From a virus: a stretch of 64,000 bases of DNA. This document shows, in pieces, positions 9,086 through 45,414 of this stretch. Position numbers and translations under genes: made by a program. The stretch lies in IMG/VR virus record IMGVR_UViG_3300031800_000001, positions 1 through 64,000 of that record. The stretch is one strand, 5' to 3'. The notes beneath the pieces are model-generated. The model did no database searches. It was not told the DNA's origin and saw only the letters and a list, made by a program, of their open reading frames with translations. Numbering within the stretch: position 1 is the stretch's first letter; each line of letters begins with the position of its first letter.

Positions 9086-11377
9086 ATGAAACAAATCGAA
9101 AGAAATCCAAAGTCGCTACAATCACACGGCATTCAAAACACCGTTAAATTCGGAATCAAGGCTTCTGGTCTTGCTCACATCTTCAACGTCTTGCGGAATC
9201 AGTTATACTCCGACAAAATTATGGCAGTTGTACGGGAATATACCTGTAATGCCGTAGATGCTCACATTGATGATGATAAGCGCGACCTCCCTATCGTAGT
9301 GTCCCTTCCCACTCGCTTGCTGCCAGAGTTCAAGGTACGCGATTTCGGCAAGGGACTTACCGATGGTGATATTCAAGATGTGTATGCGTTCTATGGTGAA
9401 TCCACCAAGCGTCAAAGCAATGAGATGATTGGTCAACTCGGACTTGGCTCCAAATCGGCTTTTGCTTACGGTGACAATTTTGTTATCAATTCCTACATCG
9501 ACGGCAAGAAGCGCATCTACAACGCCTTCATTGACCCATCGCAAATTGGTCAAATTTCCAAAATTGGTGAGGAAAACACCAGCGAAGAAAATGGTATCGA
9601 AATCATTGTGCCTGTACGCAATGACGACCACACCGAATTTGAGGAAAAGGCTCATGTTCTTTTTCGCCACTTCCCCGTTAAGCCCACAGTAAAAGGCGCA
9701 GACAGCAGAAAGTTTGAGTACGAGAACCCAAATGTTATCTTCTCTGGCGACAACTGGAAGTGGATTGAGGTCAAAGACCAACGTAATTACCGTAGTAATT
9801 CCGATGGAGCTATTGTTGTGATGGGAAACATTGGTTATCCCGTCGATGAGTATGCCCTTAATCTTTCCCATGAGGATGGGCTTGCCCCCCTCTTGAAAGA
9901 GAACCTCATTATGAATGTTCCGATTGGTGACTTGGAGATTTCCGCATCACGCGAAAAACTTCAATACACCGACTACACACGCCAAAACTTGGTTCGCCAC
10001 TTGAAAGCGGTGAAGGATGGACTCGTAGAAAGCGTGAGCAAGGACTTTAAGCAATGCGGGACTTTGTTTGACGCGAAATGCCTTTTTGGTAGCGTGTTTG
10101 ATTACGCAAGCCCCCTTTACTCATTGAGGAACATCCTAGCGAAGAAGTTGCTTTGGAATGGTAAACAAGTGGATAGCGACAGTTATAGTGTGCCTAGTGC
10201 TACTTGGCCTAAAACGGAATCAGACCAAAGCGTGTACCTTCACGCCTTCAACAAAAATTATCGGAGCAGTAAGTTTAGATGCGAGGAATCAAACAGCATC
10301 AGTTGTACGAAAGGGACGGTGGTTATTGAGAATGATATTGGGCATCGTCGCGGCATCATGGGGCGCATATTACCCCTGCTTCTCGACGAAGGCAAAAAGC
10401 CCTTTATCATCCAATTTCCTAACGCAAAAGTGAAAGCGGCATGGGTAAAAAAGGTGAGTTGGGACGGCAAAATGACCCTGCTATCAAAACTGGAAAAGCA
10501 TAAGTTGAGCGAGTTTGAGGGCTATTCCCCTGTCCGAAATCCCGATGGTAGTGGAGCGGCGAAGGACGTTAAGCATTCCGCGAAATGCTTCACCTACAAC
10601 TATGATGTGGGAGATAAAATCAATCGTTGGAGCAGAGCAAAGTCTCAATACTGGAACATTGCCGAAGCAGACATGGATGCTGGCGGGGTCTATATTCTCA
10701 TCGACAAGTTCATGGTCAGAGGCTTGAAAGGCTACGACCAAGAACCAAAGCGAATGAGCAGTCTCAAGGATTCCTGCAAAGAAGCGGGGATTGTTTTTCC
10801 AACTGTTTACGCCTTCAAGGTCGGACAGAGGAACAAGGTCGAAGGTAAAAGCCAATGGACTACCCTTTGGGATTACATGAAAAAGCAGTTGAAACTGCAC
10901 ATGGAAACCACAGACCTTACGCAAAGGTTCCTTGACCGTACTGCCGCTCTTGAGTTCGTTAATACTCGCAGGAACGACAGACTCGAAAATCTGAACCACT
11001 TGTCTACTTTCCTCACCACAAAGCAGCAATGGAACAGTCTTGATAATAAGCTCGCAGACAAGGATGGCACTTTTGCCAAGTTCGCAGATGCGTTGGCCTT
11101 TATGCACGGTTGTGTGGAAGATACGAAAGGAGTAGACGTTGTGCGCGGTTTGGCGAAGGATTTCGGTCTGACGAAAGACTTTGAAAGCCCGAAGGCTCAA
11201 AAGACTACCCACAATCTGCTTGCCTTGGGCAAAAAGCTGATGGATAAGTACCCGATGATTGCTTGGTTAGATTATCAGCACTTATGCGGTTGGAAAAGCG
11301 GGGAGAAAAAGTTCCTCACGGACATCGCCAACTACATTAACGTGATAGACATTTGTAGCAGTTCTCCCGCTGAATAG
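9086..11377 (+). CDS. rIIA: rIIA-like GHKL-ATPase-domain protein
   Basis: The 763-residue protein carries the GHKL ATP-binding motifs near its N-terminus: REYTCNAVDAH at 50-60 (Asn of the N-box), DFGKGL at 86-91 and GQLGLGSKS at 116-124, the last followed by AFAYGD. This is the T4 rIIA pattern. rIIA proteins are associated with the membrane in T4 and affect lysis timing and exclusion by resident prophages; the biochemical role is still not settled. The rIIB-like partner lies 0.9 kb downstream, separated by three small genes. A hairpin terminator follows at 11395. Confidence 0.88.
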   Translation: MKQIERNPKSLQSHGIQNTVKFGIKASGLAHIFNVLRNQLYSDKIMAVVREYTCNAVDAHIDDDKRDLPIVVSLPTRLLPEFKVRDFGKGLTDGDIQDVYAFYGESTKRQSNEMIGQLGLGSKSAFAYGDNFVINSYIDGKKRIYNAFIDPSQIGQISKIGEENTSEENGIEIIVPVRNDDHTEFEEKAHVLFRHFPVKPTVKGADSRKFEYENPNVIFSGDNWKWIEVKDQRNYRSNSDGAIVVMGNIGYPVDEYALNLSHEDGLAPLLKENLIMNVPIGDLEISASREKLQYTDYTRQNLVRHLKAVKDGLVESVSKDFKQCGTLFDAKCLFGSVFDYASPLYSLRNILAKKLLWNGKQVDSDSYSVPSATWPKTESDQSVYLHAFNKNYRSSKFRCEESNSISCTKGTVVIENDIGHRRGIMGRILPLLLDEGKKPFIIQFPNAKVKAAWVKKVSWDGKMTLLSKLEKHKLSEFEGYSPVRNPDGSGAAKDVKHSAKCFTYNYDVGDKINRWSRAKSQYWNIAEADMDAGGVYILIDKFMVRGLKGYDQEPKRMSSLKDSCKEAGIVFPTVYAFKVGQRNKVEGKSQWTTLWDYMKKQLKLHMETTDLTQRFLDRTAALEFVNTRRNDRLENLNHLSTFLTTKQQWNSLDNKLADKDGTFAKFADALAFMHGCVEDTKGVDVVRGLAKDFGLTKDFESPKAQKTTHNLLALGKKLMDKYPMIAWLDYQHLCGWKSGEKKFLTDIANYINVIDICSSSPAE

Positions 11378-30567: not shown

Positions 30568-30815
30568 GTCCAAAGGCCCGTGGTGCCGGAGAGCACCTTA
30601 AATATCGAGGGCCACCCCACCTTAATACTCGAAACTGTCAATAAGTTTTTGTTGACAGACGTCGGGGCGGGGGGTATCTTCAGTCTCCCCGGGAATCTCC
30701 TCGCTATTAATATACAATCTATTAATTTACAGCAATAATTAATAATAAATAAAACTCAATTCAAAAAAACCCCCGGGGCTTTTTGTTTTTTCTGGTCTTT
30801 TCATTTACTATGTTG
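30568..30815. other. Gene-free stretch before tmRNA
   Basis: CTGTCAA and TTGACAG (near 30638 and 30655) form an inverted repeat. GC-rich blocks (GGGGCGGGGGG, CTCCCCGGG, CCCCCGGGG followed by T5) suggest one or two terminators. No gene is visible. Confidence 0.45.
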
Positions 30816-30828: not shown

Positions 30829-31256
30829 GGGGGCGTACTGGTTTCGATTTGAAGCTTTACGCCAGATTGCAAGTAGAGGATGACGGTTGGCCTCTTAAAA
30901 AAACTGTCAAAAACATATATGCCAATGATGACATTGACATGGAGATGGCCCTTTCTGTAGACGAGGCTGACGAGATTCTCGCCAAGTTCGGATACGTTGA
31001 GGAGGAAGCCCTCTTGCTGGCAGTTTAAACCTGCCCCGTCCTACTCTGGATGCTCGTTAAAGAGCTAGGGCGTCGACAGCGAGCAAAAAACTGGACAGAT
31101 GAAGGGAGCCAGTATAAATAATCTCTTCATAAGTTCGCACAGGTCGGTTAGTCAAGTGACCCACCAACGCGAGTAAGAAATAATACTTGACTAAGCTTGT
31201 AGTATATCTGTCTGACGGTTTTGAAGACGTGGGTTCGACTCCCACCGCCTCCACCA
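30829..31256 (+). ncRNA. ssrA: Phage tmRNA with a 35-codon tag
   Basis: A 428-nt tmRNA, which frees stalled ribosomes by trans-translation. The 5' GGGGGCG (30829-30835) pairs with CGCCTCC (31246-31252), followed by A and CCA. TACTGGTTTCGATT follows the 5' arm, and the T arm is GTGGG-TTCGACT-CCCAC. The tag begins at GCC 30921 with Ala-Asn-Asp, as in the E. coli tag, and runs 35 codons to TAA at 31026. The stop lies in a GGCAG/CTGCC hairpin, again as in E. coli. The tag ends LLLAV rather than LAA. Bacterial tags are usually about 8-15 residues, so this one is exceptionally long. Confidence 0.9.
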
Positions 31257-44670: not shown

Positions 44671-45414
44671 ATGAGTGAAGAAAAAAGAACAAAAGAAGAA
44701 GTTAAGGCTGATCTTAAAGTCAAAGAGGCAGAAGTATTAAATCATCAGGCTGCAGTAAGAAAGCAGGATGCCGAAACAAGAAAGCTCCTTGCCGAAGCAG
44801 GCAAAGAAGAGATCGAGTATCAGAAAGCTTATATTGTAAGGCAAAAAGAACTGACATCCGACGAGGAGAATCATCTTTATAGATTTAATAAAGACGTTAA
44901 CTCCAACTCTGTGCAGATGTGCATGAGCAAGCTTACGCAATGGCACCGCCTAGATCCAAAATGCGATATGGAGGTTATCTTTTCGTCACCCGGAGGAAGT
45001 ATTATTGATGGTTTTGAATTATTTGATTTTCTTCAAGAAATGAGGGCCCAAGGACATAAAGTTATAACTGGCTCTTTGGGAATGGCTGCGTCTATGGCTG
45101 GGATTCTTTTGCAAGCAGGAACTCATAGATGGATAGGCCACCAAGCATGGATGATGATCCATAGAGCCGCATTTGGGGCAATTGGCAAAACATACGAAAT
45201 AGAAGACGAGGTCAAGCTGGTGAAAAGAATTGAAGAGAGATGCATTGATATCTTTGTCTCTCGTTCCAAACTAAGTAAATTGAAAATCAAAAGAAATTGG
45301 GATAGAAAAGATTGGTGGATAGACGCAGACGAATGCTTGGAGTGGGGATTGGTCGATGAAATTAAAGCAATGATGCCGGAGCACATGAGCGCTTCTAAGA
45401 AAAAGAAAAAGTGA
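44671..45414 (+). CDS. ClpP/SDH-family serine protease
   Basis: The 247-residue protein has a charged coiled-coil start (about 1-60) and a ClpP fold: FSSPGGSIIDG at 104-114, nucleophile Ser141 in GMAASMAG, His164 in MIHRA, and Asp near 214 before WWIDADECLEWGLVDEI. In phages such enzymes often mature the prohead, but a separate protease-scaffold gene is present at 48001. Its job is therefore open: lysis, host protein turnover or a second virion protease. Confidence 0.85.
   Translation: MSEEKRTKEEVKADLKVKEAEVLNHQAAVRKQDAETRKLLAEAGKEEIEYQKAYIVRQKELTSDEENHLYRFNKDVNSNSVQMCMSKLTQWHRLDPKCDMEVIFSSPGGSIIDGFELFDFLQEMRAQGHKVITGSLGMAASMAGILLQAGTHRWIGHQAWMMIHRAAFGAIGKTYEIEDEVKLVKRIEERCIDIFVSRSKLSKLKIKRNWDRKDWWIDADECLEWGLVDEIKAMMPEHMSASKKKKK

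Follow-up and report, generated by a model that had tools for sequence, protein, structure and literature searches.

Peptide tags added by transfer-messenger RNA (tmRNA) are usually regarded as short degrons in which the last few residues are critical; the Mesoplasma tag has 27 residues. Trans-translation is described as SmpB-guided entry of the tmRNA, resumption of translation at the tag, termination, and proteolysis, and known tag lengths are given as 8 to 35 residues (PMC8012679), 10 being the commonest (PMC11915505). In Escherichia coli, nucleotide A86, four bases ahead of the resume codon, sets the reading frame and is reported to be nearly invariant in natural tmRNAs (PMC2481249). Two variants of the LAA end, LVA and AAV, serve as degrons, AAV being named as a ClpXP tag (PMC9382460). 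According to the same source, the longer tag of Mesoplasma florum, a member of the Mollicutes, is tied to a change of protease, with Lon in place of ClpXP, and ends in NYAFA.

Phages also encode tmRNAs, among them mycobacteriophages Bxz1, Wildcat, and others, Bacillus phage G, OM43 phage Melnitz, and other marine phages. One survey counts tmRNAs in 402 of 18,146 phage genomes, with a two-piece form in Melnitz and most of the aquatic phages counted with it (PMC9004378), and the current reference database is said to hold 79 phage sequences (PMC11915505). The roles proposed for phage tmRNAs are to keep the hijacked machinery running and to recycle host proteins (PMC4131195, PMC9004378). Excerpts from these two accounts of known phage tmRNAs make no mention of a long conserved tag.

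A one-piece tmRNA gene in a viral genome

The DNA analyzed here, called the window, is a stretch of 64,000 nucleotides (positions 1 to 64,000) of the IMG/VR virus record IMGVR_UViG_3300031800_000001, which comprises 116,086 bases. It contains a complete tmRNA gene (Table 1) that matches the Rfam model RF00023 with 147.6 bits (E = 5.3e-58), against a cutoff of 47 bits, over model positions 1 to 374, i.e., the whole model. ARAGORN detects this gene as well. The Rfam match (30829-31256) has exactly the boundaries given in a first-pass annotation, made from the letters of the window, which had stated that all tmRNA landmarks are present; that statement holds.

A consensus fold of 12 aligned sequences, including that of the window, contains 96 pairs, and 22 of these are preserved despite substitutions of both partners in one sequence or more. 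The stem of helix H5 is formed by positions 31019-31023 and 31031-31035. The third acceptor pair, which is the alanine identity element, is G-U in all 12 aligned sequences; among 86 phage tmRNA candidates, 83 have G-U there as well. By every criterion applied, namely, the G-U third pair with the CCA end, the A at position -4, the Ala-type resume codon, the stop codon in H5, and peptide-level selection (see below), the RNA is a tmRNA. It is phage encoded like the tmRNAs listed above, but it is made in one piece, unlike that of Melnitz. With E. coli ssrA (RF00023, tag ANDENYALAA) it shares the RNA architecture, the third acceptor pair, the A at -4, the Ala resume codon, the AND. start of the tag, the stop in H5, and, in most relatives, a hydrophobic Ala-rich end, whereas the E. 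coli tag has about 10 codons against 35 in the window and no counterpart of the conserved middle module.

Just 5' of the gene, positions 30770-30795 contain a C/G palindrome with a T-rich stretch behind it, which looks terminator-like by eye and is absent from the scan's list. Elsewhere in the window, a gene at 9086-11377 encodes an RIIA-like lysis inhibitor (phrog_612, E = 1.3e-114).

Table 1. Features of the tmRNA locus and the protease gene, in window coordinates
Feature	Position	Strand	Evidence
tmRNA (ssrA) gene, one-piece, 428 bases, encoded CCA	30829..31256	+	Rfam RF00023, ARAGORN, covarying pairs
Acceptor stem, 5' strand GGGGGCG; pairs with 31246-31252, third pair G-U	30829..30835	+	Sequence
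A four bases ahead of the resume codon, counterpart of E. coli A86	30917..30917	+	A in 39/39 family sequences
Reading frame of the tag: 35 codons, beginning with the resume codon GCC at 30921	30921..31025	+	Sequence, family alignment, selection
Tag codons 13-22 (VDEADEILAK); first helix of the model, where the tag is most conserved	30957..30986	+	Alignment A1, AlphaFold2 model
Tag codons 28-33, second predicted helix, running into the C-terminal end	31002..31019	+	AlphaFold2 model
Final tag residues, LAV, read as a variant of the LAA-type end	31017..31025	+	Ends of 39 family tags
Tag stop codon TAA, inside the loop of helix H5	31026..31028	+	Sequence, consensus fold
T arm of the tRNA-like domain, GTGGG TTCGACT CCCAC	31229..31245	+	Rfam match, consensus fold
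Head maturation protease ("ClpP-like" gene), read as outside the tagging system	44671..45414	+	phrog_94, tblastn, PF00574

Relatives of the long-tag tmRNA

Tag length was compared across related phages, as the first-pass annotation had proposed, and at least 45 unique viral tmRNAs were found to carry homologous tags of 29 to 35 residues. The family as counted here consists of 39 unique sequences that follow a strict rule (the window included, duplicates removed) and six with diverged or cut 5' ends. Among the 39, the tag has 30 residues in 15 sequences, 31 in 10, 34 in 2, and 35 in 12. The window tag had been called exceptionally long. It is about three times the usual length; however, with 35 residues it reaches the upper limit of the published lengths (8 to 35) and does not exceed it.

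The relatives came from several searches. A PhoH gene downstream of the tmRNA led to four contigs with a tmRNA (L002 to L005). A degenerate tag-core pattern found 10 viral contigs, of which nine have a tmRNA 5' start upstream and four are the contigs of L002 to L005. When only the tmRNA ends and a long spacing were fixed, without any tag motif, at least 119 stretches were obtained, many with recognizable tag relatives. The tag motif combined with the T arm gave 51 viral loci: 42 carry one of the 39 strict sequences, 6 are the tmRNAs with diverged or cut 5' ends, and 3 (L215, L216, and L219) encode one unrelated protein and were dropped from the tmRNA counts. L087, whose tag is present but whose 5' start does not follow the strict rule, enters no count. 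RF00023 matches all 32 family loci checked, i.e., the window, L005, a set of 17 (one cut at the 5' end), and a set of 13. Selection was analyzed on the 39 sequences, and alignment A1 and the structure model are based on 36, with L165, L133, and L112 left out as having tags identical to those of L145, L127, and L095. Among 50,697 cultured-phage records, no match to the tmRNA DNA was found; against cultured phages, the tag peptide gave two matches only, at chance level (E = 7 and 8), and a second viral tag type gave none.

Other viral tmRNAs have long tags as well. Tags of the form AEAEYIFNNADEFL..ALAA occur in L123, L180, and L182, tags of the form TVEDLLEAAREEYDNMVDF..LAMAA in L121 and L152, a GNDNN..PVFA tag of about 36 residues in L144, and basic FKNR..LALAA tags in L122 and L344. 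Long phage tags thus comprise more than one family. In L214, L220, and L221, the same tag middle (FDFAPSVAEADAFLKA.GFV.AELLAA) stands behind a different 5' end (GGGGGTGAACCGG), and therefore the tag module may have been transferred from one tmRNA to another or may have survived while its carriers diverged widely. Contigs carrying long-tag tmRNAs also contain a Pistol ribozyme (L125:6118-6185) and an abiF RNA (L158:5368-5405).

Reading frame of the tag and selection on the peptide

Translation from 30921 to the TAA at 31026 yields the 35-residue tag ANDDIDMEMALSVDEADEILAKFGYVEEEALLLAV. The resume codons of the family were picked by a script as GCN or GGN near position 92, so that their all-GCN character is partly built in; the A at -4 played no part in that choice. 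For the window, ARAGORN reports a tag of 21 residues, EADEILAKFGYVEEEALLLAV, that starts inside the 35-codon frame. This start is unsupported, because the A that is invariant at -4 in the relatives corresponds to 30917 and their GCN codon to 30921. In L002 to L004, ARAGORN places an 11-residue frame past the stop codon of the tag, and for L005 it lists no tmRNA where Rfam finds one.

In the 31 codon columns compared, mean entropy is 0.48, 0.48, and 1.09 bits at the first, second, and third codon positions, respectively. The ratio pN/pS in the tag frame is 0.20 in the 31-residue group (n = 10), against 1.27 and 1.08 in the other two frames. The 35-residue group (n = 12) gives 0.27, with 1.66 and 1.52 in the other frames. 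For the 30-residue group (n = 15), which was compared without placing gaps, the ratio is 0.69 in the tag frame and 1.07 and 1.04 in the others. Selection was also estimated on 36 sequences found without the motif (the window, the PhoH-led contigs, and those from the ends-only pattern), with the motif codons excluded. In this set, pN/pS is 0.33 over 149 close pairs (0.35 for the part after alignment column 12) and 0.43 over all pairs (0.47 after column 12), the pairs not being independent events since the sequences are related. Because pN/pS is low in the tag frame, also after column 12, the whole tag is under peptide-level selection in this phage family, and the long frame is no accident.

The 35-codon frame proposed in the first-pass annotation is therefore borne out by the sequence itself, by the A at -4 that all 39 family sequences share, and by the frame-specific selection. 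The same data bear on two doubts raised there, that a resume codon elsewhere might give a short tag and that the frame might not be conserved after about 10 codons. The ARAGORN call speaks for a short tag; against it stand the invariant A and a pN/pS of 0.31 (close pairs) in alignment columns 0 to 11, before the ARAGORN start, and we rejected a short tag or another frame as extremely unlikely. Loss of conservation after the first codons is not seen in the values after column 12. Alternatively, the extra codons could be merely an RNA spacer or structure in which the peptide sequence is irrelevant. The consensus fold does put pairs inside the tag region (columns 94 to 180), and E. coli tag templates are reported to be alterable with little effect on tmRNA function (PMC2481249). 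However, the entropy of third codon positions is more than twice that of the first two, and pN/pS is low in the tag frame alone, which rules out a pure spacer to all appearances and leaves that explanation very improbable.

Anatomy of the tag

Three parts make up the family tag: AND. at its ssrA-like start, then the conserved stretch APS[VL].EAD.ILA.FG[YFW]..E in the middle, and finally a hydrophobic Ala-rich end. In the alignment of 36 tags (alignment A1), residues A1, A10, E15, A16, D17, and L20 are invariant, and M7, S12, I19, and G24 are nearly so. The Ala-Asn-Asp start, noted early on as that of E. coli, corresponds to this ssrA-like start. An AlphaFold2 model built on the alignment (mean pLDDT, 77.3; pTM, 0.39) predicts helices at residues 13 to 22 and 28 to 33 joined around FGYVE. 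The middle of the tag may thus be a short helix-turn-helix, a model on so short a peptide being a hint, not proof, of a fold. It may resemble UBA-like helix-GF-helix peptides, a likeness given no weight here. In Pfam, three of four tags tested, including that of the window, have no match, and the fourth matches DksA-like_N below the cutoff (E = 0.035); a profile of the tags has no match among PDB sequences. Neither search points to a partner of the middle module.

The 39 tags end in AA (29), AV (4), VA (3), VE (2), or TA (1), the full range being LAA, VAA, MAA, LAV, MAV, VAV, LVA, PVA, VTA, and LVE. In 29 of them the end is [LVM]AA; that of the window is LAV. Of the six further tags, four end in LAA, one in LELV (L225), and one in VLA. 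The first-pass annotation had set the LLLAV end apart from the LAA-type degron. The letters are as it gave them, but since the family mostly ends in [LVM]AA and the nearest relatives of the window in MAV and MAA, LLLAV is better seen as a variant of the LAA type than as another kind of end. It plausibly still acts as a degron, by analogy with the LVA and AAV variants in use as degrons (PMC9382460). The tag had also been described as acidic and amphipathic. It is clearly acidic, with a net charge of -10 in the window and a negative charge in 39 of 39 tags (-3 to -10). Its amphipathic character is modest: the hydrophobic moment of residues 12 to 23 of the window tag is 0.50, which 4.2% of shuffled sequences attain, and the mean across the family is 0.35. 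Compared with the Mesoplasma florum tag, which is likewise longer than usual, the phage tags have a different, acidic, predicted helix-forming middle, and the NYAFA end, that of the Mollicutes-type Lon tag, occurs in none of the 39.

Source of the tmRNA

The first 19 bases of the window tmRNA are rare in sampled bacteria. As a 5' end pattern, they were found in 1 of 395 genomes from the phylum to which a Chryseobacterium genome belongs, in none of 398 from that of a Raskinella genome, and in 1 of 288 from that of a Verrucomicrobia genome. In the Verrucomicrobiota family of the latter match (genome G1104), 17 of 22 genomes have a tmRNA, and all 15 loci parsed of these 17 have the first 19 bases of the window tmRNA. 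Because of this identity, a Verrucomicrobiota-like source of the tmRNA is weakly suggested. This Verrucomicrobiota family (loci L356 to L361 and L369 to L384) offers a lead to the host. Its tags end in LAA, a point of likeness with the viral tags, and an A stands at -4, which the parsing script demanded. Unlike the viral tags, they have 10 (12 of 15) or 18 (3 of 15) residues and no EAD motif, and in the Verrucomicrobiota tmRNAs compared the T loop reads TTCAA, against TTCGA in the window. When the first 45 and last 70 bases were compared with eight bacterial tmRNAs, Verrucomicrobiota scored best at the 5' end without standing clearly apart, and no clear nearest source emerged among the eight. 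The tag end shows a weak likeness to the 18-residue Verrucomicrobiota tag, with a score reached by 48 to 184 of 2000 shuffles (five tags).

Tags of the phage type were also sought in bacterial genomes. The strict tag-core pattern has no match in the collection of 84,980 species genomes. A looser combination of motif and T arm gave 14 matches in the same collection, none with the CTGGNTTCGA start and none a tmRNA by that test; this pattern fixes TTCGA in the T loop and so misses tmRNAs with TTCAA, such as the Verrucomicrobiota tmRNAs compared here. With both T loops allowed, the Verrucomicrobiota class searched yielded a match in 1 of 384 genomes (L200), one of the 14 already judged not to be tmRNAs.

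The ClpP-like gene and protein partners

The first-pass annotation had pointed to a ClpP-like protease gene at 44671 and thought a phage-run tag-and-degrade route conceivable. The gene product matches phrog_94 (E = 2.1e-50) and other head maturation protease families, and tblastn finds proteases of actinophages whose annotation reads either head maturation protease or ClpP-like protease. It also matches the ClpP family PF00574 (E = 1.6e-29), which occurs as a single copy in 12 of 29 viral records, many of them fragments. In none of these 29 records, with the same fragmentation, was SmpB found, nor a Clp-type ATPase (AAA_2) over the family cutoff; three have matches below it. The pair of protease and Clp-type ATPase that would mark a phage-encoded Clp system was thus not found. 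In the simplest reading, the partners of the RNA are host factors, and that of the protease is the capsid.

Role of the long tag

The explanation that we consider probable is a working phage tmRNA that uses host factors and adds an extended degron with a second recognition handle in its middle. With the alanyl-tRNA synthetase, SmpB (which is assumed), and ribosomes of the host, the tmRNA would rescue ribosomes that have stalled on broken mRNAs in the course of infection, and the tag added would consist of the alanine from the tRNA-like end and the 35 encoded residues. Host AAA+ proteases (also assumed) would read it as an extended degron, the likeliest reader being ClpXP, which would recognize the hydrophobic Ala-rich end. 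For the middle module, the role of a second handle is the most likely; bound by an adaptor or by a further protease such as Lon, it would speed or redirect the removal of tagged products during the phage takeover of the cell. This explanation is supported by what sequence analysis provides, i.e., the RNA, its fold, the resume and stop signals, and the selection on the whole peptide, and there is precedent for a long tag read by Lon in Mesoplasma florum (PMC9382460). Against a degron count some ends that look poor as ClpX-type ends (LVE in 2 of 39, PVA and VTA in 1 each, and LELV in L225), and against the explanation as a whole count the ratio of 0.69 in the 30-residue group and the Pfam and PDB searches, which pointed to no partner of the middle module.

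Other readings concern who reads the tag and where it came from. If the tag were not mainly a degron, the peptide would have a function of its own (host-factor binding, solubility, or marking), with degradation secondary. The middle, not the end, is indeed most conserved (E15, A16, D17, and L20 are invariant in 36 tags), and the ends vary; yet 29 of 39 tags end in [LVM]AA, as degron tags do, and neither Pfam nor PDB yields a known partner, so that we hold such a function to be unlikely. Even less probable is that the long tag is a host trait and no phage invention, inherited from a host group whose own tmRNA has the same tag. The 19 identical bases and the three 18-residue tags among the 15 Verrucomicrobiota loci would fit; however, the matching family has tags of 10 or 18 residues only, the strict tag core is absent from the 84,980 species genomes, and the looser searches, one of them blind to TTCAA loops, brought up no match with the phage start and no tmRNA. 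Degradation of the tagged proteins by the ClpP-like protein of the phage itself can hardly be upheld: a ClpP-family gene exists, but by family it is a head maturation protease, it was found in fewer than half of the partly fragmentary records, and 0 of 29 have the ATPase over the cutoff, grounds on which we rejected this route.

Returning to the extended degron, a more specific proposal may be added, which we regard as possible rather than probable: the phages may have evolved a tag in which a small, conserved fold of two helices around an FG[YFW] turn passes tagged proteins on to some partner distinct from the tail-recognition site of ClpX, be it an adaptor or another protease, of the host or of the phage.

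The tmRNA itself and tag lengths of up to 35 residues were known before; for a phage tmRNA family whose long, conserved tag is internally constrained, we found no description in the open-access literature. Long-tag phage tmRNAs may be underreported, because ARAGORN miscalls such tags (the window and L002 to L005). That a phage family keeps a tag of 29 to 35 residues which is most constant in its middle suggests a function for the conserved extra stretch, and it hints at a second recognition event in trans-translation and at a phage hand on host proteolysis. If the folded module does act in this way, the phage would alter both the choice of proteins degraded in the infected cell and the speed of their loss, and tmRNA tags would be a layer at which phages rewire the protein turnover of their hosts.
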